DNA from: Sphaerolaimus hirsutus
Lineage: Eukaryota > Nematoda > Chromadorea > Monhysterida > Sphaerolaimidae
Length of the DNA stretch: 64,000 bases
NCBI GenBank assembly: GCA_964036195.1
Contig: OZ038456.1
Coordinates: forward strand, 2,542,001-2,606,000
Direction: 5' to 3'
A program made the position numbers and the translations under genes. Shown piece by piece: positions 25,386 to 56,880 of this stretch. Numbering within the stretch: position 1 is the first letter of the stretch; each line of letters opens with the position of its first letter. The notes below the pieces were generated by a model. That model was not told where the DNA came from. It saw only the letters and a program-made list of their open reading frames with translations, and did not search any database.

Positions 25386-28300
25386 ATGCAGCCCCAACTT
25401 GGAATTGCATTGCTATGCTTTCTGGCCATTTGTGTAAGTTGACTGATTCAAAACACCGTGGCCATTCTCCATTGGGGTTTTAACTAGTGATGGGAAAAAA
25501 TGCAGCAAGGTGCTGGCAAAAGCGCCTTGGCGCTTTTCCGTCCTCCAGTGCCAAGCGCCACTGGCGCCAACCTCTGAAAGCGCCATGTCGCTTTTCTGGA
25601 CCTCAGCGCGTAGCGCCAATGGCGCGAGACAGCAATGGCGCCAAGCGCCAATAGCTAGGGATGGCCGAGGTTTTTTTTAAATAAAAAACGTTTTATTAAA
25701 AAAAAACCGACCATCGAAACCGTTTTTTTTTAAACCTTGGCCAAAATTTTTAGTACTAAGCACTGGGTATTTTGCAATTTTTTCGCGCAAGCAAAAGCAC
25801 TCTACTATTTGTGGTGGTTTTCATTGGTTTTGAGGCATTTTTAGTGGAAAAGCGTCCATTTGTTCCTGCTATTGTGTCATCATAAGCCATTGGCGCTTTC
25901 AGAGGTTGGCGCCAGTGGCGCTTGGCACTGGAGGACGGAAAAGCGACATGGCGCACAAGGACTATAATTCCAATATTTATGTGCCAATGTGCCTATAGTT
26001 GTACAGCGTGAAAAATCACTGCGAATGAATTAGCCTTCTATTGTTACCTAATTTAAACACTATTACATGGCCAACTTCACTTAGTCATGAACAGGGTTGG
26101 TTTTATAAAAATCATTTGTATACAAATTGTATAAAAATTGTATAAAAATGTATTTTATTTTAATTTTATTCTTGTTTCATTTTATTTTATTCCAAAATAA
26201 TAATAAAATAATAAAATGGACCATTTTACAAAAATTTTACAAAAATTTTACAGAAATTTTACAAAAAATCTGAATCTTGCATGCAAGGTCAGAAAAATGT
26301 GATAATTAGACCTAAACATGAAAAACGTGTGACAAATTTTTCCATTACTTTGCAAAAGTTGCATGCAGTAGGTATTGTGTGCTAGTTTATGTGTTATGTT
26401 TTTGTATCCAAATGTTCACATAAGATTTGGTTACAAAAACAACAAGATTTGGATACAAAAAATAAGATTTGGATACAATTTGCTTTACAGTTTCCACTTT
26501 AATTTATATTTGTCATGACAATTGACACTTTACTTAACATTTTCATGAAAATTGACACTTTCCATTCCATTTCATATGACATTTTGACACTTTACATGGC
26601 TTGGGACTGCCCCAGCTCCAGGAATGAACATGTTGAACTATAAACAACAGAAAAAAAATTTACAAAAAATATGAATTTTTATACAATTTTTACAAAAATA
26701 TGAATTTGTATACAATTTTACAAAAATTTTTCAAAAAATCAAATTTTAATACAATTTTTATTTTTATTTTGAAATTTTCCATTTTATTTTATTTTATTTT
26801 ATTCTTCAATTTTCCATTTTATTTTTATTTTATTTTTATTCTTTTCTGAGATTTTGCCAACCCTGGTCATGAACATTCGACAAAAGCCGATATTGGTACA
26901 TAATCTGATATACGTAAGTCGACATAAAACAGATATTTTTGACAGAAATCACGACTTATAATGCTATCCCATGACTCTACAGCCATTCTATGGCTATATA
27001 TAACATCACAAAGTAGTGTCACCTGTCTGATTTACCTGTATTGTTTGACTCATGACCATATCTAGGAGCTTTTGAAAAAAAAACGGTTTTATTTATAAAA
27101 ATTCCCTTTTTTTGAAAAAAAGGCTATTTACACAGGTCCCGGCCGGGGACCGGGACCCGGCAAAAAATAATTTTTAGTCAAAAGTGAATAATTGGCGTGT
27201 ATGGGTTATGTGCATGTAAATAAGGTGAACTATCACCAAATTAGCATGCACAAAATTTTAGCAAGACGGTTACACCCGCCGATGCATATTCTTTGGGCGG
27301 GTGTGTAAAATTATTCCGATTAGTCTCAAATTTGGCATGCGTGTACTCCGTCGTTTAGTGTGTATGCATGCCAAATTTTAGCTCCGGGCGGTTACTGGTT
27401 TTCATTTTATTCATACTTTAATTTTTTTCGATCACTGTATTTTTGTATAGTGATCGAAATCCTGCCGGGGCCTGGTCCCCGGCAATGTCGAAATGGCCCC
27501 GACTGGGGTCAAATGTCCCCGGTGAGAAAAATTTGTTTTCAGTAAACGACGAATTTCGGTCCCTGACCGGGGATGTTCACAAATTTTTAGTCCCCTGCCG
27601 GGGACGAACGTCCCCGATCGGGGACAAAAATTCTTTGTTTACTGAAAAAAAAATTTTCTCACCGGGGACATTTGACCCCGGTCGCGGCCATTTCGACATT
27701 AGTGTGCAATTTGCACTTTTATTTTTCAAAAAGTGACAGCATATGTGAATATTGGTTTCGGCAAGTCACATTTGCCGTTCAAAGTTCACATTTGCAGAAC
27801 ATTTTTGAAAACTGTAGGGCGACGCGTAGGCGACGCGTAGGCGACGCGTCGCCAACAAAATACTCTGAAGACAATTTTGAAAACTTAAAATTGAATAATG
27901 TAGTTTTCAAAAATGTACATTCTAGTTTTCAAATTTGCAGAACATTTGTGAAAAGTGCGACGTACAGCGACGTCGCTGTACGTCGCTGTACGTGCCAGTT
28001 TTCAATATCTGTGCAACATATGTGAAAATGCGTCGCTGTACACACAAAAAGTAGCAAAATCGTCGCCAGGCGTCGCTAGTTTATGGATTTTCGCCAACTT
28101 ACTCCAAAATCCTTTAAAAAACACTGGATGGATGGGTTAATGTTAAATTAAGAGTGTACATGCAGTATTTTATGCTGCATGTACTGATGGGGTTGTAGAA
28201 AACTTGGGATGCATATAAAATAAAATAATTTTTTTTAAAAAAAACGTCACTGTGGCGACGTTTCAGGTGACAACTGTATATGTCACCTGTTTCCATAAGT

Positions 28301-31300
28301 TATTACCAATCTTGAAAAGTACTTATAACATGACAGAATTCATAAATTTATCAACAACACCGAATCTGGGACTTGGTACTACTGTTAATTAAATCAATCT
28401 TTCTGAAATTTGTGTGTACCATGCAATTGTTAGTCATGATCTTGCATTAAAATATAAATATATATATAATTTTTCATTTCATTAATTGATAAATATTTGT
28501 GAAAGTGATTTATACATGCAGTTAGGTTGGCACTCTGTACAAGGGGTTAATGAAATTTCAGATGCAAATCACAGGGATGAAATTCAAGATGCCATCACAG
28601 AGAAAATGAAAGACTGGTTTTGATGTACTCATGGCAGACTTAGATACTGCTCAATTGCCAGTCATTGGTGAATTAATCCAGTATGACCAACTGCTTGCAC
28701 AATCTTTGGGTCAATACCAGCATCAACACTCCAAGGTGACCAAACAACTAAACAGTATCTGGCTAGCTGCCAAACATGATTTTATGCATATAACATATGT
28801 CTTATTTTGTGCACTTTCACCTTGCATCACATTTACTAAGCTGAGTTTTCCTGAGCACTGCTTGGCTCAGCTGGACTGGAGTTTTTGGAGTTTTTGCTGC
28901 AGGCTGGAGTGTTGTAATGGCCTCCACTGGGTGCTTGGCAGTTAATTTATACCCTTTGCACTGACACTTGGAAGTTGTGCACATACAGTAAATAATTTTG
29001 AAAAAATCTCTGGAAACATAAAAAGACTATGTGATTTTTCCAAGCCTTTTTTTGCATCTTTACATTTCTTTTTCAAGACTTTCACTCAATTCCTCAATTC
29101 CATGGATAGATCCAGATAACTTTTGAGTTTTCAAAAAGGTTCATGTTTATGTTAAATTTTGTGACAGATCGTAATATTAAATAAAAACATTTCTGAAAAC
29201 AGTACAATAAAATTGTTTTTATTTTTTTTGTGCTAGTGTATTCAATGTGACATTGTCTCAGTCAGTGTTCACTTGTTGTTCATTTTTTTGGCTTTCATTT
29301 ACATACAAAATCAGCTGTTTCAATTGCACTTGTGATTTTTAAAAAAATTATAAAGTGGATTGTATAAAAATATCATTACTTGTTTTGCAGAAATGTTATT
29401 GAATTCAGTTTTTTTTTTTTGATGTGAAAAAATAAGGGCTTTTTACTGTGATAATGCAATAATTACAGATACACAGATGTAATTTTAAAAAATTATTAAA
29501 TGTTTTAAGCATAACCACAATTTCTTCATCATCTTTGAACTTCTATTGTGAAACACGGTATCAAATGAAAGAGAAAAAAAAACTGGATATATATCTGAGA
29601 CGGATATCATATACAATGTAAAACTGAATTTTTAAAAATATATATAGTTAGAAAACGAATTAATTTTTAAAAATATGTATAACAGTGCTAAAAATATACA
29701 ATACAGTCCCAAAAATCAAGCATAATTTTCTGCATCACATGCCGCTTACAGCTTGTCCTACAAATTCGTACTTATTCAACAAAAAAATATTTTGTCTGCA
29801 GCATTTTACCAGAGTTTTCAAATATGTGTTCTTCCGGAGGAAAAATAGAAAAAAAACAAAGATGGCGGCCATTTGGCTCATTACACAGACTGTTTAAATG
29901 AATTTGAAAACAAAATAATGGGTTTTCACAGAGGGAACCTTGAAAACCAGCTTGTGTGGGGCCATTGCCGGGGACCGGGCCCCGGCAGGATTTCGATCAC
30001 TATACAAAAATACAGTGATCGAAAAAAATTGAAATATGAATAAAATAAAAACCGGTAACCACCCAGAGCTAAAATTTGGCATGCGTACTCACTAAACGAA
30101 GGAGTACACGCATGCCAAATTTGAGACTAATCGGAATAATTTTACACACCTGCCCAAAGAATATGCATCGGCGGGTATAACCGTCTTGCAAAAATGTTGT
30201 GCATGCTAATTTGGTGATAATTCACCTTATTAACATGCAAATAACCCATACACGCCAATTATTCACTTTTGAAAAAAATTATTTTTTGCCGGGTCCCGGT
30301 CCCCGGCCGGGACCTGTGTAAATAGCCTTAAAAAATGGTTTTTTTAAAAACCTTGATGTTGAAAAAAAACCTTTTTCGGCCATCCCCAGCGCCAGCGCCA
30401 AAAAGTTTGTTGTATTTATAATTTGTTTGCAGAATAACGAGTACCGTATTTCCTCGAAATACCCCCTGGGGGGTGATTGTTTCATAGTGGTCCCGAGAGG
30501 GGGGGGTTAAACGAGGGTGGGGGGTATTATTTCGCCAGAAATTTTTTCAAATCCTAGTACAAAATCGTCGTTTGTGATGTACACTGGGGTAGAAAAATGC
30601 ATCAATAACTGACATGCATAGACTCCTGTAGACTAATAGTAGTATGTAGATGGTATAAACACTGTTCTAACGTGATTACGACATCGTTTTAACGTGTGTT
30701 CTGCACTACGCAGAACACAAACTGCAGTATTTGTCATGTACGTTCTCTTTACACTCAATATGGGGGGGGTATTTCGAGGGGGGGGGGGGGTGATTGTTTC
30801 ATAGTGGTCTCGAGAGGGGGGGGGGTCAAACGAGGGGGGGTATTTCGAGGAAATACGGTTAACTTTTTTGGCGCCATTTAAAATGCTGGCGCCAGGCACC
30901 AATAGTGCCACATTAAAATGGCACAAAGCGACAAAAGTGCCATTGTTCTTTTTCAGATAATGGCGCCAAGCGCCAATGGCGCCAGAGCATTTTAGCGCCA
31001 AGTGCCATGGCGCTTTTCCATCACTAGTTTTAACATTACATCTGCAATGCTGAACAACAATTCTCATTGATGCAGGCGTGCCGGGCAGAGTTGTCTGACA
31101 ACTGCAGGGCGGAGCTAAACGACGCGCGCAGCTGCGTGCTGGCTCTCAAGGACCAGTTCAGTGTCATCAATGACTGCATCCAGCAGCAGTACGTTCAATA
31201 TTTTTTTCCAAAATCTGTTTTGTATTTTACAATCAAATTATATTCGAATTAATTGAAGTTAATCAAATTGTAGTCCTAATTCCTAAGCCACTTAGGACTA

Positions 31301-34300
31301 GGGTGTCAACAAAAACTTTTTGGCGGAAAACGGAAACGGAAATTTTTTGGCACTTGCCGGGAAACAGAAAAATTTTGGCACTTGCCGGAAAACGGAAAAA
31401 TAAAAGGCCAGAAAACGGAAACGGAAAAATTTGCTGAAAGTATGCCGGAAACAGAAAAAATTTGCTGAAATTATGCCGGAAACGGAAAAAAATTTCCTGA
31501 AATTTTGCTGGAAACGGAAAAAATTTCCTGAAATTTATCTGGAAATTTGCAGAAATCTCACTAGAAATAGAAGAAATTCACATAATTGAGAACCTGCATG
31601 CATGTTTGCCAGTTTGGCTACAACAGAAAACATAAAATTGAGCTAGAAAGTGGAAAAAAGTTGGAAAAACAGACAATTGAACCGGAAAATTGAAAAAATC
31701 CGGAAAAACTGAAAATTTAGCCGGAAAACGGAAAATGAGCCGGCAAAACGGAAACAGAAAAAAATTTAGCAGCCGGAAAACGGAAACGGAAATGGAAAAA
31801 AATTTGCCTGAGGAAAGCGGAAACGGAAAACGGAAAACGGAAGGTTGACACCATACTTAGGACTAGGGTGTCAAAAAAAATTTTTGACGGAAAACGGAAA
31901 CGGAAACGGAAAAAAAATTTCAGCGGCCGGAAAACGGAACGGAAAACGGAAAAAAATTTACACTTGGCGGAAAACGGAAACAGAAACGGAAAAAAATTTT
32001 CAGTGGCCGGAAAACGGAAAAAGGGGCCGGAAAAACGGAAACGGAAAAATGGAATTTGCATGGAAATGGAAAAATTTGCTGAAATTTTGCCAAAAAACAC
32101 GATAAAATTTGCTGAAATTTTGCTGGAAACAGTATTTTTTTACATAATTGACAATCTGCATGACTGTTTACCAGTTTGGCTGGACCAGAAAACAGAAAGT
32201 TGAGCCAGAAAAGGGTAAAATAAGGCGGAAAGCAGAAAATTGAGGCGGAAAACGGAAAAAAGGCGGAAAAACTGGAAATTGAGCCGGACAACGGAAAAAA
32301 GGCGGAAAAACTGAAAATTTAACCGGAAAACGGAAAATGAGCCGGAAAAACGGAAACGGAAAAAAAGGTGGCCGGAAAACGGAACGGAAAACGGAAAAAA
32401 AATTTCAGCGGCCGGAAAACGGAACGGAAAACGGAAAAAATTTGCCTGCGGAAAACGGAAACGGAAAACGGAAAACGGAAATTTGACACCCTACTTAGGA
32501 CCGTATCGCTTCGCATATTTGCGTAATGAAAATATCTGTATATAAATTGCAATTGCGGTCCACTGTGTATTTTCGCACACCTCAAGAAACGGTGCTGAAC
32601 CCACAAACTTTACGTTTCAAAAACCATCGAGTGCCCATCCCAAAATGCCTCCACGTATCGCTTCTTGTCCTTTTGGCTAGTATAAGTAAAAGTGTAGTAT
32701 CTATTCTTATCAGCTTAATCTCTGATATGCAACCTATTGGTTGCACTGAGATTAGTCGATTTTTGGGGCCGAGTGCAGCTCGCTGTGCCCGTGCCGCGCG
32801 TCGGCACAGCGCTGCACTGCTGCTGGGAACGGCTGGGAATTTTGGCACTTGGCGGAAAAACGGAAATGGAAAAAAAATGCTGGGAACGGCCCACACCCCC
32901 CGGGGTGGGGGGGGGTATCTCAGAACCTGTTTTGCTGTACTGTTTATGTGCCAAAAAAATGAATAAATGGAAAATTGAAGAATACCGTAATATAAAATGG
33001 AAAATAAATGACATTTTACTAAAATTAGAATTTTTGTAAATATTTAGTATACACACAAAAATTGTACATACCGTATTACCTCGAATTATCCCCCCCTTGA
33101 ATTACCCCCCCCCCCCCCCTCGAATTAACCCTCCCTCAAAATGGGCTGGGGAAATAATAGACCCCCCCCTCGAAATTGTTGAAATTTTGATGGAAAATGG
33201 CACAAAATCACATAATTTAAAACCTGCATGCATGCTTACCAGTTTGGCTGAAACAAAAAACAGATAATTGAGCCAGTAGAAGGGAAACTGTGGTGGAAAA
33301 ACTGAAAATTGAGCTGGAAAACAGAAAAAAGGCGGAAAAAACTGGAAATTCAGCCAGAAAACAGAAACGTAGGGGTTACACGCCCCCTAACTCACCCCTG
33401 CAGCTATAATGTGTCTATAACGGGTCTAGATGTCTAATGGGTTTAGATACATAATATACCTGACCCGGTATAAACCATGTTCTAACGTAACTCAATCACA
33501 TTGTTTTTAACGTGTGTTATGCATTGCCCGGGTCATAAACCGCAGCTTCTGTCATTGACGTTCTCTTTACACTCAATTGGGGGGGGGGTATTTCGAGGGG
33601 GGGTTCTTAATTTATACTGCACATTTTGAGGGGGGTATTTCGAGGAAATACGGTACATTCCTTCAGAGTTGTTAAACATACTGAAATTTTTTGAAAGTAA
33701 ATGTAAACGTAAAGTATTTATTTTTACTCACAAGTGAGTACAGAAAACGTCAAGTATTTTGAAGATACTTTTACACTGCGTAAAACATGCATAAAATACT
33801 TTTTTCAGAGAAAATGTAAAAACGAGTATTTTTTGCAGGGAAAACGTAAAAATAGGTATTTTTTCACAGAAAATGTAAACGGTATTTTTTTCACAAACAA
33901 CCGCACCCTCCCAGCTGCACAGACGGCAAGGTGGAACGGTTTACAGCGTATAAAGGAATAGAATGGCCCACAGATCCTTCAACCAGGCAATGCGTCTTGG
34001 GCGCCATGCAGGACGCAGTCGCAGAATGCGACATCCCTCAGAAACCGTAACTTTTGTGACTTTAAATTGTGACTGCAATTAGGCGACCACATTTTTCTGA
34101 TTCCGTATTCATGCAGCAAACCGTGCCACGGCGTGAAGCACTGCGTGAAGCAAAGTGAGCAGATTGACCAGGTGAAGGCCGCCGTGAAGGAATGCAACAA
34201 CAGGTTAAATGCTCCACAATTTTTTTCCAACAAATTCCGCTGGTTCTAACGCAGCCACCACATAAAATATACCGCTTAATCCTCGAATAAGTCCCCGGGG

Positions 34301-35171
34301 AAGTTATTTTTTGTCAGGATGTATTGAGGGGGAGTTAATCGAGGGTAGTTATTTTTTCCTCACGCTCATAAGAGGGGGGAGTTATTCGAGGATTTACGGT
34401 AAATAACTAAGTACGATAGAACACACATTACAACATCTTGGGAATACATGGTCCCGACTGCAGCCTTTTTTAACAGTCAAAACAGTACCAAACAATCAAT
34501 CATCCACCAATAATCATAGTTGTTAAAACGTATACACGTCTACTCGATAAATACGTATACTCGAGTACTATGTAAATACGTTTACGTTTCTACCTAAAAA
34601 ATACCCGTAATCACTTACTCGCGTACTTTTTGAAAGTAGATGAGTACAGAAAACGTATTTCAGATAGGCTTTTATAAAGACTTCTTCAAGGCATAAAGGG
34701 AAAAAAGGGAGAAAAAAGCTAAAAATAGGGAAAAATTTCCGAAATAGGTTAACAAATAGGCAAAAAACATTGACCAGGGTAATTCGAGGGTAAAAACGTT
34801 TGGAAATTAGTGATATTAATGAAAATTTATGCAAAATTTCTCAAAAATACCCACTTTTACGTTTTCCCGGGACAAAAGTAATCTATCTACTCACGTTTAC
34901 TCATGAGTAAAAGTAAAAAAATTTGACTTTACGTTTTCTGTACTCAGCGATCAGTAAAAAATAAATACTTTACGTTTACGTTTACTTTCAAAAAGGTTGA
35001 GTACTTTTAACAACTCTGCCAAAAATACCTGATCACAGGGCGTCGACCGATTGCCGCAGTGAAGCGAGCGACGCGAAGTGCGAGTGCATCCAAGCCGCCA
35101 AAGACGACATCAAAGCCGCTTGCGACCATGAAATCAAAGACCGCGACTGCTCCGCTCCTAGGTATGGCTGA
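25386..35171 (+). CDS. Secreted cysteine-rich helical protein, copy A (5 exons)
   Basis: Exons 25386-25433, 31076-31188, 33915-34046, 34117-34203 and 35039-35171. All borders are GT-AG, phases match at each junction, and the sum (513 nt) gives 170 residues plus stop. Exon 1 is a signal peptide (MQPQLGIALLCFLAIC). The mature part is hydrophilic and Cys-rich, with helical pairs such as CVLALKDQFSVINDC, CVLGAMQDAVAEC and CIQAAKDDIKAAC; paired Cys spaced 11-16 residues suggest disulphide-linked helical hairpins. I do not recognise the family; an extracellular role is inferred from the signal peptide. The last exon ends SAPRYG-stop, but AG/GTATGG at 35160 could also be a donor to a further exon. 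Intron 1 holds a 5.5-kb transposon nest; intron 2 holds a U2-like sequence. Confidence 0.8.
26092..26865. mobile_element. hAT-like element, CAGGGTTGG ends (nested)
   Basis: CAGGGTTGGTTTTATAAAAA to GATTTTGCCAACCCTG with perfect GTCATGAA duplications. Interior of ATTTTATTTT and ACAAAAATTTT runs, split by a right-hand fragment of the CAGTCCC MITE at about 26512-26610. Confidence 0.83.
27122..30330. mobile_element. 3.2-kb element with inverted ends of about 370 bp
   Basis: The left arm from about 27122 (GGCTATTTACACAGGTCCCG) to 27488 returns inverted from about 29958 to 30330, including the CCGGGGACCGGG block and the GATCACTGTATTTTTGTATA block. Such long inverted ends differ from the short-ended MITEs nearby. 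Between the arms is AT-rich DNA with a short coding-like stretch at 28600-28790 (QLPVIGELIQYDQLLAQSL) that may be a transposase relic; no full ORF remains. Confidence 0.6.
30444..30858. mobile_element. CCGTATT/AATACGG-family MITE
   Basis: CCGTATTTCCTCGAAATACC to TTTCGAGGAAATACGG; interior AACGTGTGTTCTGCACTACG recurs at 42.9 and 59.4 kb. Confidence 0.7.
31298..31855. mobile_element. hAT-like element, TAGGGTGTCAA ends (tandem pair, left)
   Basis: TAGGGTGTCAACAAAAAC to GGTTGACACCATA. CTTAGGAC stands before it, between it and its neighbour, and after the neighbour: three copies of one 8-bp target. Interior CGGAAAACGGAAACGG repeats. Confidence 0.83.
31864..32493. mobile_element. hAT-like element, TAGGGTGTCAA ends (tandem pair, right)
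   Basis: TAGGGTGTCAAAAAAAAT to AAATTTGACACCCTA. The matching site in gene B (about 45173-45200) has no insertion, so both elements entered copy A after the duplication or were lost from B. Confidence 0.83.
32580..32656 (+). promoter_or_regulatory. Shared upstream flank of U2-like copy A
   Basis: CTTTACGTTTCAAAAACCAT lies 51-36 bases before the RNA start and is identical in copy B, as is much of the next 30 bases. Spacing fits a proximal sequence element of an snRNA promoter; this is inferred from position only. Confidence 0.45.
32657..32896 (+). pseudogene. U2 snRNA-like sequence, copy A (probably broken)
   Basis: Matches U2 along its length: ATCGCTTCT start, AAAGTGTAGTATCT (branch-point pairing GTAGTA), TTCTTATCAGCTTAATCTCT, Sm-like GATTTTTGGGG, and the 3' CTGCACTGCTGCTGG hairpin. 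Damage: the CTCGGCCTTTTGGCTAAGAT segment is altered (TTGTCCTTTTGGCTAGTATA), and about 53 nt of CGGAAAAACGG-type transposon sequence split the 3' end, flanked by repeated TGCTGGGAACGGC. Without that insert the length is about 187, normal for U2. It sits in intron 2 of gene A on the same strand. Confidence 0.75.
33071..33653. mobile_element. CCGTATT/AATACGG-family MITE with inner insertion
   Basis: CCGTATTACCTCGAATTATC to TTTCGAGGAAATACGG. The middle (about 33180-33370) is CGGAAA-type sequence of the TAGGGTGTCAA family, suggesting capture or insertion. Confidence 0.6.
34272..34399. mobile_element. Short CCG...CGG MITE in intron 4 of gene A
   Basis: CCGCTTAATCCTCGAATAAG to TTCGAGGATTTACGG. The same insertion is present in gene B at 47904-48032, so it predates the gene duplication. 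Confidence 0.65.
34515..35018. mobile_element. hAT-like element, AGTTGTTAAAA ends, next to exon 5 of gene A
   Basis: CATAGTTGTTAAAACGTA to GTACTTTTAACAACTCTG; flanks CCAATAAT and CCAAAAAT (7 of 8). It ends 20 bp before exon 5, so its end supplies the region where the branch point should lie (TTTTAAC about 30 bases upstream). The orthologous insertion in gene B has identical 8-bp flanks. Confidence 0.8.
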
Positions 35172-35245
35172 GCGGGCCAAATGGACACGGACACTATCCA
35201 TTGTGACACGTTGAGAATTTGTCCTGACTGATTTTACCTACCTAC

Positions 35246-35891
35246 ATACTTGGGACTGCCAAATGTTTTTTAACGACCTTGTTTTAAAAAACAACGTTTT
35301 TTTATAAATAAAACGGTTTTTTCAAAAGCTCCCAGATATGGTTATGGGTCAACATATACAGGAAAATCAGTACTTTGTGATGTTAAATATAGCCATATAA
35401 TAACTGTGGAGACATGGGATAGCATTTTAAGTGGTAATTTCTGTCAAAAATACCCATTTTTGTCAACTTGTTACGTATATCGCCTTTTGTCGAATGTTTG
35501 TGACTTCAAGTCAAGTTTTGCACGGAATAGTGCTCAAATAAGGTTATAAGAAAAGGCTTATACATTGACAGTGATTTTTCACACGGTAGAAGTATGTGGG
35601 AGCACATTGGTTAGATATTATATACTACACTAACATAGCACGGCTTATTATTACACAATAGCATGAACAAATGAAACCTTTCACACTAAAAATGCCTCAA
35701 AACCAAGGAAAACAACCACAAATGGTAACGTGTATGTGAAATTGCGCGCAAAAAATAGCAAAATAATTTGTGCATAAGTATAACAATTTTTGGCTGCTGC
35801 GTTTAAAAACCCGGTTTCGATGCCTCTGTTTTTTATATAAAAACGTTGTTTTTTTTAAAAGACAGTTAAAAAAACACATGTGCCATCCCTA
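35246..35891. mobile_element. hAT-like element (tandem pair, left)
   Basis: Right end TGCCATCCCTA; the left end is worn (ATACTTGGGACTGCC). Flanked by CTACCTAC on both sides. AACGTTTTTTTA-type palindromes lie near the ends. Confidence 0.7.
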
Positions 35892-38832: not shown

Positions 38833-41800
38833 ATGCAGCACCAATTTGGAATTGCATTGATATGTCTTCTGGCCATTGGTGTAAGTTTACAGTGATTCAT
38901 CACGGCCAGAACTCGGTGCGCATGTAAACCCGGTGAACATGTAGACCCGGTGCACATGTAGACCCGGTGCACATGTAGACCCGGTCATCGGGTTGCAAGG
39001 GACATACCGTGAATACTCTATTACGCAATTACTACCGTGATTACGACCTCCCTCCAATAAAGCGACCCCTCCAATAGTGCGACCCCTTTTGGCATGTTGT
39101 GAGAGTATAATGCGACCCCCTCCAATAATGTGACCCCCGAGCAGGCTGACCGTGAAATTATAACACGTGGTATAATAGCGTGTTATAAGAGGCGCGTACC
39201 GATTTTTGCCTAACGCGCACTAGTATTTAGATGCGCGCTATTGTTTACCTTAATTTACACAAAGCCGACTGTTGCGCGTTAGCGGGCACACGGGAAACAG
39301 AGGTCAATCCATTTACCGTGTTAGCTGTTTTCACTAACACGCATCGTTGGGAAGAAATCGTGTTAGTAAAATGTGGCATACCCGAATGACAATAGTTTTT
39401 CGGGTTAAGCGTGTTATAACTTGACAAACACAGAGTGAAGTCTTGGGTCTGGGCTTCATAGTTGTTAAAACGTATTTACTTTTACTCGATGAATACGTAT
39501 ACTCGAATACAGAGTAAATACATTCACGTTTCCTCCGAAAAAAAAGTTCTGGTACTCGCTTTTACGTATACTTTTTGAAAGTAATCGAGTATGAAAATAG
39601 CTAATTTTGAGCAACATTTCTCAAAAATTTTGGCGACATTTCTCAAAAGTACTCACGTTTACATTTTCTGCAGGGAAAAGTACGTTTACTCACATTTATT
39701 CATGAGTAAAAGTAAAACAAATTTACTTTATGTTTTCTGTACTCGAGGGGTGAGTAAAAAATAAATACTTTACGTTTACATATACTTTGAAAAAAGTTCG
39801 GTACTTTTAACAACTCTGCTGGGTGGTGTAAGCAAAGTGGGACAAATATAACCAGATATACTTCGTGGACAACACACTTAGTATGGAAACCTACCATAAC
39901 CCATCTGAATAATGAACCAAAAATTACAGTTTTTTCATCACAATATTTCGTTTTTACTATGGAATGATTAATTTCAAAATTTCTCACATGATTTTATTCA
40001 TAAAATTGTGGTAAGATAGACCCAATTGAGAACCAACAATATTATTTGTCTGCCATCCAATAAAAATTCATTTTTTCCAGATACTCCATAATATACCCAT
40101 TCAAGAATCAATGCATATTTAGTGAGTGATAAGTCAGCTGATAGGTCACTCTCCTTCTGAATACAGGTTGCCCCATAAAGAATTCTCCAAATATTAAGAT
40201 GCTTGAATTTCAGACTACACACATCACAAAGAATGTTTCTGGATTTTGAATGATTAAGTAACTTGAGAAATTGTGCACAAAATTCACTGATATTTTGTGA
40301 GAACAATGTATTTTATTTGATGAGGAAAAATACATATTTATAACTATCAATGCATTATGCGAGTGGGATATGATAAGTTCCATTGTAAAGTGTGCAGTCA
40401 GTGCACAGTACTAGCAGTCACACCTTTTCAAAGCACACTATTGAAAAACGCAAAATATCTTAAACAGGGCCCACTTTAATTCCTTATATCACTTGGCCAC
40501 CCTGTAACAATTGGATGTGTTTGTGTACAGGGGGCCCTTGAAAACAGAGTTGTTAAAAGTACCAAACTTTTTCCAAAGTATGTGTATGCATAAAGTATTT
40601 TTTTTTACTCTCCCCTGAGTACAGAAAATGTAAAGTAAAACTTTTTTACTTTTATTCATGACTAAATGTGAGTAAAATACTTTCTCCCCAAAAAATGTAA
40701 AAGTGCATATTTTTAGGAATGTTGCCCACAATTTTCAAGAATCACCATTATTCATACCTTTTTGACCATTTTAACCTTAAAATTCACTAGTTGATGCTAA
40801 TGATGGCAAACCCACTTGAAAAAAGTATTTTGATTTTTAAGTGTTTGTTTCTAGAATGACTTGTTGAATTTTTCTGAAAATAGTTTGTACTAATGGCCCT
40901 GTGCACACTAGTTTTCACATGAAATTTAGAAAATTCATTGAAAAAACTTTGAATGTGATTGAGTTTTCCACAATTAATCATTTCTAGTCGCCATCAACTG
41001 TAGTTGGTGGCCAACTCATTGTAGAAAACTCAAATGCATTCTAAACTGATTTGTGAGTTTTCAAAATTTTGTGTGAAAACTAGTGTGCGCAGGCACAATA
41101 GATTTTTAAGTGTTTTTCCAGTAAAATAAATACAGTATTCTATGCAAGGGCAGGGTTGGCAAAATGTCAGAAAAAAATAAAATGGAAAATTCAAGAATAT
41201 CATAAAATAATATGGATTCCGATTTTTTCTAAAAAAAATTGTAAAATGGTTTTATTTATATTATTACTGACATTTCAGAATAAAATAAAATAAAACCCTT
41301 ATAAAATAAAAATAAAATACAATTTAAATATAAAAAAATACAATTTTAGTCAAAATAATTTTACTAAAACCAACCCTGCTCGAGAGCGAGTAAAAGTAAA
41401 TAAATTTTACTTATACATATACTTTGAAAAACGCCCAGTAATTTTAACAACTCTGATAGTTTGTAGAAGAAACATAACGTGTTATGAACTGGGTTCTACC
41501 CGCCATTCGGTGCGCGTATCTTTTTTGGTTTGACCCGCATCAATTATACGGCCTACACCTAATGACACGCAATCCTACTATAACACGGCCTGTTGCGGGT
41601 TATTGAATAATAGCGTTTTTACGTGCGCGCTCATTTGCGCGTCAGACCGTCAGACGGGTCATTTACTTATTCCAGGTGACCATTTTCAACGTAAACAAAC
41701 AACAGACGTGCTATGAGCGGGTTACAACCGGAATTTTGAGCGTGTTACACGTTACAATGAAATAGTGCGTATCTCGCGGCCAGCCTGCCCCCGAGTAGTA

Positions 41801-44800
41801 CATGAACTAGTGATTTTGAAGGTCGGGGGCCCGAACCGACCCGAACCGAACCGCGGTTCCAAGCATATTTTGGAACCGAGAACTAGAACCGAAGAAAATA
41901 CCCGAACCGGAACCGAGAACCGACACATTTACCCGGAACCGAAGTTTATACCCGAAAGAACCAAATTTTTTGTATAATTACCTGACCAAAATGCAGCGGT
42001 TTGCACCGTTATGTTTTTGATCAGTTTCCTACCGCAAATGTAAACGCAGCAGTGATGTCAGTGGTTGATTAAATACCGTATTACCTCGAATTAACCCCCC
42101 CCCTTGAATTAACCCCCCCCTCGAAATACCCCCCCTAAAATTCGGCTGAGGAAAAAATAAACCCCCCCCCTCGAAATACCCCCCCTAAAATTGAGTGTAA
42201 AGAGAACGTACGTGACAAATACGCAGTTAGTGATCTGTACAATGCAGAACACACGTGAAAAATGATGATTAAGTCACGTTAGGGAAGGTTTTATGTGTAT
42301 ATACAGTTATATATGCGTATAAACACATAAACATCTGTGTAATTGTTCGATTTTTCTACGTCTGCGTATGGGGAATTTCCGAAAATTTCCGGCGAAATAA
42401 TAGACCCCCCCCTCGAATAAACCCCCCCCTCGAATTATCCCCCCCTCAAATTTTGCTGGCGAAATAATAAACCCCCTGGGGGTATTTCGAGGTAATACGG
42501 TATTCAAATATTTATGGTATTCTTTGGGTTTTTTCCAGACATATCACTAATCACATATTTTTTGTACAACAACAATAGGGATACCGTATTTACTCGAATA
42601 ATTCCCCCGGGGAAGTATTTTTTCGTCATACATTTTTTAGGGGGAACTTTTCGAGGGGGGGAATTATTCAAGTGGGGGGATTATTATTTCGTCAATATTT
42701 TCAAGCATGTTTCTATCACACTACATACACATGTATGTCCTGTTTCTATTGGTATATACCGTATTTCCTCGAAATACCCCCCCCCCCTTGAAATACCCCC
42801 CCCCCCCCTCGTTTGACCCCCCCCCTCTCGAGACCACTATGAAACAATCACCCCCCCTCGAAATACCCCCCCCAAATTGAGTGTAAAGGGAACGTACATG
42901 ACAATAACTGTAGTTTGTGTTCTGTGTACTGCAGAACACACGTTAAAACAATGTCGGTGTCACGTTAGAACAGTGTACATACCATCTACATACTAATATT
43001 AGTCTACAGAACCTTATAAATGGCGGTTTTTGTTGCATTTTTCGACGTCTGCGTACGTTTCAGACGACAATTTCGTACTTGGTTTTCAAAAATTTTCTTG
43101 TGAAATAATAACCCCCCCCCTCGAAATACCCCCCCCCTCGTTTAACCCCCCCCTCTCGGGACCACTATGAAACAATCACCCCCCGGGGGGTATTTCGAGG
43201 AAATACGGTAGTGCACATTACATTGCATCTTTGCACTCTTGGCGTGCTACACTGCATTCGATGAATCAAACCACAGGTTTTTTGCTTGGTTTGACTTCAT
43301 CAATCTTTTTTTTCTCAAATAAATGTGCATTATCTACCCTCCGTCATTGGGGGGGAGGATAATTCAAGTGGGGGGATTATTTTTTCCTCACTCATCTAAC
43401 AGGGGGGAATTATTCGAGGGGGGGAATTATTCAAGTGGGGGAATTATTCGAGTAAATACGGTAAAATGTTTTTTTTGATGACACCTTTTAAAAGCTCCCA
43501 ATTAAGGTTGTTTAGTTATGTAAAAGCACCATGGCGCTTCTCGTGCTTGACACGACTTTTCTGCTATGCCATTAGCACTTGGCACTGGGAGCAAGGGTCT
43601 CCAATCCAGGGGGTATGGGGGGGGGCAGCCCCCAAATCTGCAGCTAGGCAGCATCTATCCTGGAGGCCACTCAGCTATTGAGTTATCCAGAGGCAAACTT
43701 TGACTATCCTCAACCCTATGTTTTGTGAGTTGAGTGAATTCTATTTTTGAATCATCACTTGAATAAACACTTACTTTATCTGTGATGTAACACTTTGACC
43801 TTGCTAGAACTTGAAAAAAATGGCAAAAAATGGAAGGGCAGCTTACAATAGAAGGGCATATCCAATAGAGGGGTGGGTGAAAAAGTTGATGATATGGTCT
43901 CTCTCTGTTAGACGAAATATGGTACCTGTTTTCAGCTATTTTTAACCTATTTTAGTCATTTTCATCATTTCTAAGTGATTTTCTCATTTCTCTGCCTTCT
44001 TTGCTAGTTAGGTAATGTGTTTTTGCCTATTTTGATGCAATTTTTGGATCTTTTATCTCTATTTTTAGCTTTTCTCTCCTTCTTTTCCTTTATCCCTCGA
44101 TAAAACTTATAAAAAAGCCCATTTTAAATATGTTTTCTGTACTCGAGTACTTTCAAAAAGTACGCGAGTAAGCGAGTACCGGTACTTCTTACGGGAGGAA
44201 ACGTAAACGTATTTACGCACTACTCGAGTATCCGTATTTATCGAGTAAACGTAAATACGATTTAACAAGTATGCATTACAGGTGCAGTGCCAATTCAACC
44301 CTCAAAATGATGCAGGCTTGCCCGGCCGAGTTGTCTGATAACTGCAGGGCGGAGTTGAACGACATGCGCAGCTGCGTGCTGGGGCTCAAGGACCGGTTCA
44401 GCTAGGATGTCAAATTTCCGTTTGCTGTTTTCCGTTTCCGTTTTCCGCTGGCAATTTTTTTCCATTTTCCGTTCCATTTTCTGGCTGCTGAAATTTTTTT
44501 TCTGTTTTCTCTTCCATTTTCCGGCCACTAAATTTTCCATTTCCGTTTTTCCGGCTGATTTTCCGTTTTCCAACCAAATTTGTAGTTTTTCCGTCTTTTT
44601 TCCATTTTCCAGCTCAATTTCCAGTTTTTCCACCTTTTTTCCCATTTTCCACCTCAATTTTCCGTTTTTCCGCCTCATTTTACCTTTTTCTGGCTCAACT
44701 TTCTGTTTTCTGTTACAGCCAAACTGGTAAACATTCATGCAGATTGTCAATTATGTGAATTTTTTCTGTTTCCAGCAAAATTTATGCAAATTTTTTATAC

Positions 44801-47800
44801 TTGCGGCAAAATTTCAGCAAATTTTTTCCATTTTCCAGCAAAATTTCAGCAATTTTTTTCATTTAAGTGCAAATTACATTTTTCCGGGCCCTTTTTGCGT
44901 TTTCTGGCTGCTGAAAATTTTTTTCTGTTTCCGTTTCCGTTTTCCGCCAAGTGCAAATTTTTTTCCGTTTTCCGTTCCGTTTTCCGGCCGCTGAGTTTTT
45001 TTCCGTTTCCGTTTCGTTTTCTGTAAAAAATTTTTTTTGACACCCTAGGTTCAGCGCCCTCAACGACTGCATCCAGCAGCAGTACGTCCAATGTGTTTTT
45101 TACAAAATCTGTTTTGTATTTTACAATCAAATATTAATCGAGTTAATCAAAGGTAGTCAAATTTTAGTCCTAGTCCCTTCTCCACAGGACTGTATCGTTT
45201 CGCATATTTGCGTATGAAAATCGTAATCTGTAGTTAAATCGCAACTGTGGTCAACCGTGTAAAAATTTTCGCACACACCAGGAAAGGGTACTGAACCCGC
45301 AGACTTTACGTTTCAAAAACCATCCAGTGCCCATCCATAAACGCCTCCCAGTATCGCTTCTCGGCCTTTTGGCTAAGATCAAAGTGTAGTATCATATCTT
45401 AGTATAGTTCTTATCAGCTTAATCTCTAATATGCGACCTATTGGTTGCACTGAGATGAGTGGATTTTTGGGACGGAGGCGTGGAGCCACAGCTCGCTGTC
45501 CCTGCCGCGGGTCGGCCCAGCGCTGCACTGCTGCTGGCAATGGCCCACACCCCGGGGGGTTAGGGTTCAAACAGGATCCCGATCCTGGATCCCGTGAAAT
45601 TCCGGGATTTGGCAGTCCTGATCCCGAAACCCTAATCCTGATCCTGAAATCCAAAAATACCAATCCCGATCCCTATCCTGAAAACTTTCAAATCCCGATC
45701 CCGAGTATCTCCCAAGTCCGGGATCCCGATCCCGGAAAAAACAGTGGAAATTATAAAAAGTGAAAAAAATGACATTTTTGCATGCAAAAATGTGAACGCA
45801 AACCCCCAGCGTCCATTTTATGTTACTTTTCTGGCTTCCAACAGTGTACCTTTATGAACATTTACTTTTGAGACCTTTTATGAACAACAGTGAATGCCAG
45901 AACAGTGACGAAAATCTCTATCCCTAGACCCAAATCCCGATCCTGAAAAAATGCCAATCCCGATCCCAATCCCGTGACCGCAATCCCAGCCAATCCCGAT
46001 CCCGATCCTGATCCCGAAATCCCAAAATACCAATCCCGATCCCGATCCCGAAACCCCAATCCCGATCCCGAAATCTCAAAAAGTGAATCCCGATCCCGAT
46101 CCCGAAAAGTCAATCCCGTTTGAACCCTACCGGGGGTGCCTATGAACCTGTTTTGCTGTACTATTGAAGTGCCGACGCTTCTGCCGTAAACAGTTCTGGG
46201 GCCAGTTCCGCAAGTTAAAAGTAGAGAGTAAAAATTGGAGAGTAGAGTAAAACGGCAAATGGCAAGTAAAGAGTAGAGTAGAAATTGAAGAGTGGAGTAA
46301 AAATTGACAAGTAGAGAAACAAATAAAGAGTTAAAAAGTAGAGGAAAAAAATAGAGTAAAGTGATAAATTGGAAATAACGATAAAATAAAAATAAAAAAA
46401 TAAAAAAGCGCGGTTTGGGTTTGGACGTTGCGATTTGGACATATTTATGCCGTCCGCGCACGGCCATTATTCGAAACTATACGTCGTTTTTTTTTACTTT
46501 TTGAGTAATTTTTTTGTATACATCCGTGTAAAAAACATGATCGGTTCCAAAGTTGCGATGCATTTTACACGGATGTATCCAAAAAATTGCTCAAAAAGTA
46601 ACAAAAAATCGACGTATACTTTTGAAAAATAGACGTGCGCGGACGGCATTTGTCCTAACCGCAACGTGTCGCGCTTTTTTATTTTTTTTCAATTTTATCG
46701 TTATTTCCAATTTATCTCTTTACTTGATGTTTTACTCTACGTTTTACTTTACTCATTATTTTTTACTCTCCTTTTCAATTTTTACTTTACTTTTTACTCT
46801 ACTTTTCAATTTTTACTTTACTTTCAATTTTACTCTACTCTCCTATTTTTACTCTCTTCTTTTAACTTGCGGAACTGGCCCCTGATTACCCGCCATGCGT
46901 GAAGCGTATTTTAGCGAAATGCTCCCAGGGGGTCCATTAGGTATTTCGCCATAATTTTTCGAGATGGGATTTTTTATTTCTCCAGGAGTTTATCATAAAA
47001 ACCCAGCACACACTAGTTGACAATGGTGCTAAATGTCAACTGGTTCAGATCCTAATTCAAAGCTTACTGACGAAAAACACTACACTGATTGTCTAAATAC
47101 ACAGATCACTATTTACTTCGTGCCGACGTTGTACATTAAAAAAGACACTGCAATGTTTGTTTTTTCAACACCACAGTTTCATTTGTAACATGATTCAGCA
47201 CTTTTGCGTTAGAACGTCGATGTAGAAGTGGAAGCAATGTGATAAAAATGATGAGAAAAAGTTTGTTCTTTTATTCAGATGGGATACGGTAGATTCCATT
47301 GTAAGGTGCATTTACTGTCGCTGGAGTGTGATAACAAAGAAACCGCCCCCTCCCAGCTGCGCAGACGGCCCGGCGGAACGGTTTACCGTCAAGGCGATAA
47401 GACTACCCCACGACGCTTCAATCAGGTGCCACTCCCAGACCCTGTAAAATGCCCTGTAAAATGTCAAATGTCATGCAAAGTGTCAAAAGTCATGTAAAAT
47501 TCCTGGTAAAATGGCAAACCTACGTTTACCATTACGCAGGGCATTTTACATGACGTTTGACACTTTGCATAACTTTTGACATTTTACAGGGCATTTTACA
47601 CGGTCTGGGAGTGCCCCAGGCGATGCGTTTTGGGCGCCATGCAGGACGCAGTGACAGAATGCGACATCCCTCAGAAACCGTAACTTTTGTGACTTTAAAT
47701 TTTGACTGCCACCGAGGCTACCAACTTTGTGTTTTCATATTCATGCAGCAGACCGTGCCACGGCGTGAAGCACTGCGTGAAGCAAAGTGAGCAGATTGAC

Positions 47801-48789
47801 CAGGTGAAGGCCGCCGTGAAGGAATGCAACAACAGGTTTAATACTCAGCGATTTTTTTTCAACAAATTCCCCTGGTTCTAACGGAGCCACCACATAAAGT
47901 ATACCGATTAATCCTCGAATAAGTCCCCGGGGGAGTTATTTTTTGTCAGGATGTATTGAGGGGGGAGTTAATCGAGGGGAGTTATTTTTTCCTCACGCTC
48001 ATAAGAGGGGGGAGTTATTCGAGGATTTACGGTAAATACAAAAGTACGATAGAACACACATTACGACATCTTCGGAATACATGGTCCCGACTACAGCCTG
48101 TTTTAACAGTCAAAACAGTACCAAATGATCAATCATCCACCAAAAATCATAGTTGTTAAAACGTATACGCGTATACTCGAGTACTGTGTAAATACGTTTA
48201 CGTTTCTACCTAAAAAATACCGGTAATCACTTACTCGCGTACTTTTTGAAAGTAGATGAGTACAGAAAACGTATTTCAGATAGGCTTTTATAAAGACTTC
48301 TTCAAGGCATAAAGGGAAAAAAGGGAGAAAAAAGCTAAAAATAAGGAAAAATTTCCGAAATAGGTTAACAAATAGGCAAAAAACATTGACCAGGTAATTC
48401 GAGGGTAAAAACGTTTGGAAATTAGTGATATAAATCAAAATTATGCAAAATTTTTCAAAAATACCCACTTTTACGTTTTCCTGGGACAAAAGTAATCTAC
48501 CTATCTACTCACGTTTACTCATGAGTAAAAGTAAAAAATTTTGACTTTACGTTTTCTGTACTCAGCGATCAGTAAAAAATAAATACTTTACGTTTACGTT
48601 TACTTTCAAAAAGGTTGAGTACTTTTAACAACTCTGCCAAAAATACCTGATCACAGGGCGTCGACCGATTGCCGCAGTGAAGCGAGCGACGCGAAGTGCG
48701 AGTGCATCCAGGCGGCCAAAGACGACATCAAAGCCGCTTGCGACCATGAAATCAAAGACCGCGACTGCTCCGCTCCTAGGTATGGCTGA
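38833..48789 (+). CDS. Secreted cysteine-rich helical protein, copy B (5 exons plus two transposon-made introns)
   Basis: Exons 38833-38880, 44316-44395 + 45049-45081, 47357-47425 + 47620-47679, 47749-47835 and 48657-48789. Exons 2 and 3 of copy A are each split here by a transposon. With those removed at their GT-AG borders the coding sum is 510 nt, 169 residues plus stop, collinear with A and with the same Cys spacing. Signal peptide MQHQFGIALICLLAIG; mature start ACPAELSDNC. The copies differ mainly in exon 3 (FTVKAIRLPHDAS versus FTAYKGIEWPTDPS). Without splicing of both insertions the frame is lost, so either they are real introns or copy B is broken. Confidence 0.75.
39000..39456. other. 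Repeat-rich part of gene B intron 1
   Basis: Three tandem GTGCACATGTAGACCCG units at about 38928-38985, then TACCGTGAATACTCTATTAC with CCTCCAATAATGCGACC-like repeats. No exon or clear element border was seen. Confidence 0.45.
39457..39818. mobile_element. hAT-like element, AGTTGTTAAAA ends
   Basis: CATAGTTGTTAAAACGTA to TACTTTTAACAACTCTG; flanks CTGGGCTT and CTGGGTGG (6 of 8). Confidence 0.7.
39819..40545. other. No gene seen (gene B intron 1)
   Basis: Unique-looking AT-rich DNA with minus-strand ORFs of about 100 codons that I could not link to any family. A coding-like feel near 40000-40300 is not supported by a motif. Confidence 0.3.
41151..41378. mobile_element. CAGGGTTGG-family MITE
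   Basis: CAGGGTTGGCAAAATGTCAG to CTAAAACCAACCCTG around AAATAAAATAAAA runs. No matching 8-bp flank. Set in a region (40548-41454) that contains AGTTGTTAAAA-family fragments. Confidence 0.6.
42076..42500. mobile_element. CCGTATT/AATACGG-family MITE
   Basis: CCGTATTACCTCGAATTAAC to TTTCGAGGTAATACGG; same subfamily as 23824 and 51548. Confidence 0.7.
42584..43461. mobile_element. CCGTATT MITE with another copy nested inside
   Basis: The outer copy runs CCGTATTTACTCGAATAATT to ATTCGAGTAAATACGG; the inner copy is at 42759-43208. The two belong to different subfamilies (CGAATAATT versus CGAAATACC). Confidence 0.65.
42759..43208. mobile_element. Nested CCGTATT/AATACGG MITE
   Basis: CCGTATTTCCTCGAAATACC to TTTCGAGGAAATACGG; its interior matches the copies at 30444 and after the gap at 59360. 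Confidence 0.65.
43470..44310. other. End of gene B intron 1, no exon seen
   Basis: AT-rich, ending in a partial AGTTGTTAAAA-family piece (about 44070-44276) just before exon 2 of gene B. A GGGGGTATGGGGGGGGGCAG run lies near 43610. Confidence 0.4.
44403..45047. mobile_element. hAT-like element inside exon 2 of gene B
   Basis: TAGGATGTCAAATTTCC to TTTTTTTGACACCCTA, 645 bp, flanked by perfect GGTTCAGC duplications (44395-44402, 45048-45055). The borders read CCG/GTTCAG and CCCTAG/GTTCAG, so a GT-AG intron 44396-45048 removes it exactly. A T8 run lies just before the acceptor. Interior TTTTCCGTTTCCG repeats place it in the same family as 31298-32493. Confidence 0.9.
45295..45352 (+). promoter_or_regulatory. 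Shared upstream flank of U2-like copy B
   Basis: CTTTACGTTTCAAAAACCAT at nearly the same distance before the RNA as in copy A, followed by AGTGCCCATCC in both. Candidate snRNA proximal element. Confidence 0.45.
45353..45550 (+). ncRNA. U2 snRNA-like gene, copy B
   Basis: ATCGCTTCTCGGCCTTTTGG start, then CTAAGATCAAAGTGTAGTAT, matches the conserved 5' half of U2 base for base as I recall it, including the branch-point-binding GTAGTA. The Sm-like site GATTTTTGGG and a 3' hairpin with CTGCACTGCTGCTGG follow. One oddity is a 12-nt insertion after GTGTAGTATC (TAGTAT repeated), absent from copy A, which lengthens it to 198. It may be a variant or a pseudogene. It lies in intron 2 of gene B; a transposon (45561) follows 10 bp after it. 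Confidence 0.75.
45561..46129. mobile_element. hAT-like element with CCCGAT arrays after U2 copy B
   Basis: TAGGGTTCAAACAGGATCCC to CCCGTTTGAACCCTA; flanks CGGGGGGT and CCGGGGGT (7 of 8). Confidence 0.78.
46196..46884. mobile_element. Inverted-repeat element, CAGTTCCGCAAGT ends
   Basis: CTGGGGCCAGTTCCGCAAGT to ACTTGCGGAACTGGCCCCTG. Arms are made of AGAGTAAAAATTG units on the left and the complement on the right, so it can fold on itself. A family member lies at 49250-50262. Confidence 0.7.
47429..47614. mobile_element. MITE inside exon 3 of gene B (CAGTCCC family, copy 5)
   Basis: CCACTCCCAGACCCTGTAAA to CACGGTCTGGGAGTGC, flanked by ATCAGGTG and CCCAGGCG-type repeats. The exon reads ATCAG/GTGCCA...CCCCAG/GCGATG, so a GT-AG intron 47426-47619 (194 nt) restores the uninterrupted frame of copy A (AACCAGGCAATGC). 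Confidence 0.88.
47904..48032. mobile_element. Short CCG...CGG MITE in intron 4 of gene B
   Basis: Counterpart of 34272-34399, at the same place in the intron. Confidence 0.65.
48148..48636. mobile_element. hAT-like element, AGTTGTTAAAA ends, next to exon 5 of gene B
   Basis: CATAGTTGTTAAAACGTA to TTTTAACAACTCTG with perfect CCAAAAAT flanks; counterpart of 34515-35018. Both copies end 20 bp before exon 5. Confidence 0.83.
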
Positions 48790-48876
48790 GCGGGCCAAAT
48801 GGACACGACACTATCCATTGTGACACGTTGAGAAGTTTGTCCTGACTGATTGTGCCTACACACACACACACCTGGT

Positions 48877-49249: not shown

Positions 49250-50262
49250 AACTGGTGCCGGTTCCGCAAGTGGACAAGTTAAGAGTTAAAAGTTAAGAGT
49301 TGAGTAAAATGACAAATGGCGAGTTAAGAGTAAAGTTAAAGTTTAAGAGACAAGTTAAAGTTTAAGAGAAAAGTTAAAATTTAAGAGTTGAGTTAAAGGT
49401 TGAGTTAAATGTTAAGAGTTGAGTTAAAGGTTAAAAGTTGAGTTGAGAGTTAAGAGTTGAGTTAAGAGTTGAGTTAAGAGTTGAGTTAAGAGTTGAGTTA
49501 AGAGTTGAGTTAAGAGTTGAGTTAAGAGTTGAGTTAAGAGTTGAGTTAAGAGTTGAGTTAAGAGTTGAGTTAAGAGTTGAGTTAAGAGTTGAGTTAAGAG
49601 TTGAGTTAAGAGTTGAGTTAAGAGTTGAGTTAAGAGTTGAGTTAAGAGTTGAGTTAAGAGTTGAGTTGAGAGTTGAGTTAAGAGTTGAGTTAAGAGTTGA
49701 GTTAAGAGTTGAGTTAAGAGTTGAGTTAAGAGTTGAGAGTTAAGAGACAAGTGGAAAATGATGGTAAAAAGATATAAAAAAATAAAAATGTGAAATTGGT
49801 ATAGATACGGCTGTTTGCTGGCATGGTGCCAATGTTGTATGCACGTCATTTGAAAATAATGTATCCAAAAAAATTATCGCTAAAAAAAGAAAAAATCGCG
49901 GAACATTGTTTCAAATCTAACGCTCTCAAGATCCAAATTCATTTTTTAAATTTTTTTATTATTTTTTATTACATTTTTTTCCCATTTGTCTTTTAAATCA
50001 ACTTTATATCACCTTTTAACGTTTAACTCAACTCTTAACTCAACTTTTAACCTTTAACTCAACTCTTAACATTTAACTCAACCTTTAACTCAACTCTTAA
50101 CATTTGCCTCAACTTTTAACTCAACTCTTAAATTTTGACTTTTCTCTTAAACTTTAACTTTTCTCTTAAACTTTAACTTTACTCTTAACTCGCCATTTGT
50201 CATTTTACTCAACTCTTAACTTTTAACTCTTAACTTGTCCACTTGCGGAACTGGCCCCTGGT
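49250..50262. mobile_element. 1-kb inverted-repeat element built from GAGTTAAGAGTT units
   Basis: Ends CCGGTTCCGCAAGTGG and CCACTTGCGGAACTGG with CTGGTG on both sides; the A unit (ACTGGTGTGTGTG near 36903) is the empty site. The left arm holds a long 12-bp tandem array, the right arm the complementary units (AACTCAACTCTTAA), so the RNA could form a very long hairpin. Confidence 0.75.
49388..49740. repeat. Minisatellite, 12-bp unit GAGTTAAGAGTT
   Basis: About 25-30 near-perfect units. The reverse strand is open and reads LLTQ repeatedly, which is an artefact of the repeat. Confidence 0.85.
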
Positions 50263-56832: not shown

Positions 56833-56880
56833 ATGCAGCCCCAACTCGGAATTGCATTTCTATGTCTTCTGGCCATTGGT
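56833..56880 (+). CDS. Secreted cysteine-rich protein, copy C, signal-peptide exon only
   Basis: MQPQLGIAFLCLLAIG followed by the donor GTAAGT, one or a few residues different from exon 1 of A and B and the same length of 16 codons. No exon 2 is found in the remaining 7 kb. Intron 1 spans about 5.6 kb in A and 5.4 kb in B, so exon 2 could lie in the gap, beyond the window, or be lost. The minus-strand exons from 60.4 kb favour truncation or a very long intron. Confidence 0.7.

Follow-up and report, generated by a model that had tools for sequence, protein, structure and literature searches.

Organization of the locus

We analyzed a 64,000-nucleotide stretch of the genome of Sphaerolaimus hirsutus (C9:2542001–2606000 of an assembly of 348 Mb in 762 contigs; hereafter, the window), in which one of two related genes carries a transposable element within a coding exon. 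The two genes, designated A and B, were predicted from conservation, phase, and GT-AG borders; they lie in tandem on the forward strand, with five exons each, and their phases are consistent throughout. The predicted exons of gene A are located at 25386–25433, 31076–31188, 33987–34046, 34117–34203, and 35039–35171, the last including the stop codon. Those of gene B are located at 38833–38880 (exon 1, with the signal-peptide-like start MQHQFGIALICLLAIG), 44316–44395 and 45049–45081 (the left and right parts of exon 2, of 80 and 33 nt, the latter followed by the donor GTACGT), 47620–47679, 47749–47835, and 48657–48789 (exon 5, including the stop codon). Apart from the insertion, the five exons of gene B and its native splice borders are intact, and the uninterrupted 113-nt exon 2 of gene A provides an empty-site paralogue.

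The insertion in exon 2 of gene B is a non-autonomous hAT-like element of 645 bp (44403–45047, forward strand), flanked by perfect 8-bp target-site duplications, GGTTCAGC, at 44395–44402 and 45048–45055, which are spaced 653 nt apart. Its terminal inverted repeats, TAGGATGTCAAA (44403–44414) and TTTGACACCCTA (45036–45047), are 12 bp long and pair at 11 of the 12 positions; the fifth base of the left repeat was private to the window copy among the 30 copies described below. The open frames of the element resemble low-complexity repeats, and its T-rich strand lies in the sense direction of the gene. We regard a transposon insertion in this exon as virtually certain.

G44395 is the final base of the left exon part and is followed by a proposed donor GT (44396–44397), whereas G45048, the first base of the right duplication, completes a TAG acceptor downstream of a run of eight T residues (45031–45038). 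The candidate GT-AG intron thus delimited is 653 nt long (44396–45048), and its splicing is proposed on the basis of this geometry and of splice-site scores. When 44396–45048 was deleted in silico, the 80- and 33-nt parts were joined into a 113-nt exon in the same phase as exon 2 of gene A, with no stop and no indel between the two. The preliminary description of this DNA had reported the element between its duplications, the T run, a 653-nt removal with no base gained or lost, and a restored exon equal to that of gene A in length and frame, all of which were confirmed.

Element family in the genome

The genome was searched with the DNA of the window copy. With scores computed for 40 first-look candidates out of 5,464, at least 41 matches were obtained, counting the window copy (L001) itself. 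Thirty copies were fetched, including the window copy; they are the best matches and not a random sample. Perfect 8-bp duplications flanked 25 of the 30 copies, two more had duplications with one mismatch, and 15 copies lay in each orientation. Divergence from the consensus was 1.4–3.0% in 19 copies, 9.0% in the window copy, and 7.7–10.6% in eight others. Genome-wide, the perfect end TTTGACACCCTA occurred 8,431 times (4,201 + 4,230), compared with 31 times for the reversed control, which corresponds to approximately 4,200 copies if two ends per copy are assumed.

The terminal inverted repeats of hAT elements carry the motif YARNG, and the short inverted repeats of this family fit it (TAGGGTGTCAAA). 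The 8-bp target-site duplications also agree with hAT elements, and such duplications occur in some non-hAT superfamilies as well. With the hAT miniature inverted-repeat transposable elements (MITEs), as that class is generally known, the family shares 8-bp duplications, short inverted repeats starting with TAGGG, and thousands of short copies. These features suggest a family of non-autonomous, hAT-like MITEs.

Two further copies lie in intron 2 of gene A, both on the reverse strand. One (31864–32493), which is 85% identical, lies between CTTAGGAC duplications; the other, a second diverged copy (31299–31855), lies directly before it, and the two have a CTTAGGAC duplication in common. The interval 31299–32493 consequently contains two diverged copies in tandem and three CTTAGGAC duplications.

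Target-site preference and splice geometry

The target profile was derived from 24 perfect duplications (that of the window copy excluded) read on both strands, giving 48 sites. The resulting target, GTNNNNAC, has G (67%) and T (73%) at its first two positions, any base at the next four, and A (73%) and C (67%) at its last two. According to the preliminary description, an element ending in CCCTA makes a TAG acceptor whenever the duplication begins with G. This rule holds, and an acceptor of this kind is usual in the family, which even prefers a G at the first position.

The same description regarded this arrangement as a simple route to new introns, a view that the preferred targets of the family do not support. 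If a target begins with GT, as did 52% of the 48 sites, a cut from the GT through the TAG would remove one coding base, whereas a target that begins with GGT would allow exact removal. None of the 48 sites began with GGT, and AGGT was found within the duplication at one of them. Across the genome, GGT followed 225 of the 8,431 perfect ends (2.7%), compared with approximately 1.2% expected from base composition. Because the clean fit is uncommon in the family, its geometry in gene B would favor an exonic copy that survived because it was spliceable. Because the preference of the family is mostly off by one base, the family does not appear to be tuned for intron making.

Evidence for and against splicing

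We propose that a non-autonomous hAT-like MITE inserted at a GGTTCAGC site in exon 2 of gene B, and that the duplicated site would provide both the donor G/GT and, with the terminal TA of the element, the acceptor TA/G. With a donor and an acceptor supplied by the duplication and the element end, the spliceosome could excise the insertion and leave the mRNA unchanged. Of the explanations considered, the likeliest is that part or more of the gene B transcripts are spliced cleanly in this way, which would have allowed the insertion to persist. The probabilities that we assign to this explanation and to two others are judgments and were not computed; clean splicing of 44396–45048 from gene B transcripts is held tentatively, at slightly under an even chance. 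It is favored by the GGT found at so few element ends, which a random exonic insertion would be unlikely to meet, by the intact exons and native borders of gene B, and by the divergence between the two genes. Between A and B there are 13 synonymous and 15 nonsynonymous changes, giving a ratio of nonsynonymous to synonymous substitution rates (dN/dS) of 0.27 (Fisher p = 0.001); the ratio is 0.31 for exons 1–2 only (p = 0.018) and 0.18 for exons 3–5 only (p = 0.029). These values point to constraint on at least one of the two genes, and probably on both for most of their history. The block containing exons 3–5 (33983–35249 in gene A and 47616–48867 in gene B) is 93% identical, introns included, compared with 80–88% near exon 2, which suggests later gene conversion.

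Splice-site scores, for which we used generic animal site frequencies and not frequencies derived from this genome, point both ways. The proposed acceptor scored 6.7, compared with 1.5–6.5 for the eight native acceptors, and 52 nt separate the last AG within the element from its terminus. The T run, the AG-free final 52 nt, and the good acceptor score all follow from the T-rich strand being in sense. The reverse orientation would place a purine-rich end at the acceptor, so the orientation found here is favorable.

Several observations weigh against clean splicing. The proposed donor, CCG/GTTCAG, scored −0.8, lower than all nine native donors (−0.4 to 5.7), several of which are A–B pairs and hence nonindependent. 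Inside the element, acceptors at 44612, 44718, 44775, and 44838 scored 9.5–11.1, exceeding the terminal acceptor, and a donor at 44727 scored 5.5, exceeding the terminal donor. Through such internal sites (for example, the acceptor near 44775 and the donor at 44727), splicing could instead be imprecise, yielding mRNAs that carry element sequence and encode mostly truncated proteins. The argument for this outcome consists of scores from a generic animal matrix, and we consider it unlikely. Furthermore, the clean geometry was spotted post hoc, and alternative layouts that permit clean removal, for example AGGT within the duplication, would also have drawn notice. Gene A could also compensate for a loss of gene B.

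The age of the insertion adds to these points. Outside CpG, the window copy departs from the young consensus by 42 differences. Of these, 32 are common to at least two other copies and represent an older subfamily; an age based on the raw consensus divergence of 9.0% was rejected for this reason. Ten of 561 non-CpG sites carried a change that the window copy shared with no more than one further copy among the 30, 18 of its 82 CpG bases were changed, and it carries two deletions, each present in at most one other copy. Very roughly, the insertion would have an age of approximately 2% divergence. Because it appears so recent, the constraint between A and B would mostly predate it, and the intactness of gene B is no proof that splicing is in use. 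By a rough estimate, an unused gene B would still appear intact by chance in approximately 20–30% of cases.

An insertion too young to show decay would also fit plain disruption, in which gene B was inactivated by the element, its loss was tolerated because of gene A, and the GGT fit is coincidental. The unspliced frame, ...TTC AGC, runs straight into a TAG stop as it enters the element, at the first codon there. The low donor score and the high scores of the internal acceptors point in the same direction. So do four of 28 other copies, which lie in other long frames without the clean geometry, three of them in retrotransposon genes (see below). However, disruption requires the 2.7% coincidence of GGT together with the favorable orientation, and gene B retains all of its exons and native splice borders intact. 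We regard it as a substantial possibility that nevertheless falls short of being probable.

Other copies in reading frames

To these observations on gene B, the search for further exonic copies adds the following. Thirty of the 225 GGT places were fetched, and the left end of an element was found in 18, the stretch examined containing none for the other 12. The duplications were perfect at 15 of the 18 places, and L056, L057, and L061 had two, two, and one mismatches, respectively; L056 and L057 had identical flanks. After the flanks were joined, frames of at least 100 codons over the junction were found in the sense direction at two of the 18 places (L044 and L049) and on the opposite strand at one (L061). 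No Pfam family matched the translations of L044 and L061, and the frame of L049 looks like repetitive sequence. None of the 18 places was convincing as a host exon, in a sample too small to assess enrichment. This result, together with the weak donor and the competing, stronger internal acceptors, also speaks against a simple route to new introns. The window copy has a G+C content of 0.61 in the 100 bases around its junction, an exon-like value reached by one of 46 other copies (L061).

The 28 other copies have duplications matching within two mismatches, and four of them (L018, L020, L025, and L028) sit in frames exceeding 400 codons. L020 and L025 lie in retrotransposon genes according to Pfam; the piece of L018 beside the insertion had no Pfam match, and a farther frame shares sequence with L025. 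Three of the four long-frame copies (L018, L020, and L025) are thus assigned to predicted retrotransposon genes, and L028 had no Pfam match. GGT was found in the coding direction at none of the four, indicating that reading frames are hit without the clean geometry.

At L028:1300–2700, an older copy (7.9% from the consensus) splits a 637-codon frame of unknown family. Its duplication is GT-first and its T-rich strand is in sense, which makes it a natural test of the predicted loss of one base.

Seven of the GGT places for which no left end was found in the stretch (L048, L053, L062, L065, L070, L071, and L072) have in common a reverse-transcriptase-like piece upstream of the right end, which looks BEL/Pao-like. 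The sole one tested of the seven, L071, matched RVT_1 with 27.5 bits, just under the Pfam cut-off. These loci possibly represent a longer subfamily with a captured retrotransposon fragment.

Relation to known routes of intron gain

The Ds elements of maize belong to the hAT superfamily, are non-autonomous, and generate 8-bp duplications. They reportedly act as introns, going by the titles of papers by Dennis (1988), Wessler (1991), and Giroux (1994), which are cited in PMC3260210 and PMC3443670. These cases are said to rest on transcripts. The present case involves a different element and a different host, and here we infer both the transcription and the splicing of gene B from the sequence.

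A model in which a transposon inserts at an AGGT target is set out in a 2012 review (PMC3443670) that cites a maize Ds intron paper. As in that model, the duplicated target would yield both splice sites and leave the coding sequence unchanged; in contrast, the target here is GGT, and the A of the AG comes from the element end.

Gozashti et al. (2022; PMC9860276) describe introner families with the 3′ site in the element and the 5′ site from the duplication, and state that mRNA length is unchanged in most families. Their Fig. 2B concerns Symbiodinium, with 4-bp duplications, and their Fig. 2F concerns Aureococcus, with 8-bp duplications and 12 bp added to the transcript. By its geometry, the insertion in gene B followed by GT-AG removal would correspond to the common case, in which the mRNA is unchanged. 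Compared with the introners described there, the final G of the acceptor is here also derived from the duplication, and most sampled copies have targets that preclude clean splicing. Moreover, an introner family supplies introns to different genes through many similar copies, whereas the copies examined here offer one exonic candidate, in gene B, whose splicing we infer. The usual target of the family also does not supply usable splice sites on both sides, a property that we, and not that paper, would ask of an introner. We find it quite improbable that this family of approximately 4,200 copies is an occasional introner, with its G-first preference and TA end making acceptors at most insertions and its GGT-first minority (225 ends) seeding clean introns that would persist upon landing in exons.

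No description of the gene B case was found in the literature searched, a negative that says little. The insertion is a well-formed candidate for an already published route of intron gain and, if spliced, would represent a young intron gain with its empty-site paralogue adjoining. In place of a simple route to new introns, the target preference, the one-base miss, and the 2.7% clean fit give a testable expectation, namely that clean introns from this family would occur at GGT-first sites and that most of them would have their T-rich strand on the sense side.

Gene products and other features of the window

The predicted product of gene A has 146 residues, is cysteine-rich, and has a signal-peptide-like N-terminal start; the two genes probably encode a small, cysteine-rich, secreted protein. 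A protein search gave 11 candidates, none with an E-value up to 1, and there was no Pfam family above the cut-off and no PDB match. The gene is an orphan within the protein, Pfam, and PDB libraries searched, the animal coverage of the protein collection being uncertain.

Another signal-peptide exon, the third, was found at 56833, and a relative of exon 5 (57% identical) lies beyond the window, at C9:2620323. As an outgroup for A and B, this gene C failed for exons 2–4, which had no clear match; only exons 1 and 5 match.

Intron 2 of gene B contains a U2 spliceosomal RNA gene or pseudogene (45353–45553, 107.8 bits), and intron 2 of gene A contains another on the same strand (32657–32842, 85.8 bits). 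Their shared intron and strand indicate that U2 was probably duplicated along with its host gene. Downstream of gene B, there is a long tandem repeat (49424–49873), the open frames of which give (LLTQ)n and (LNST)n.

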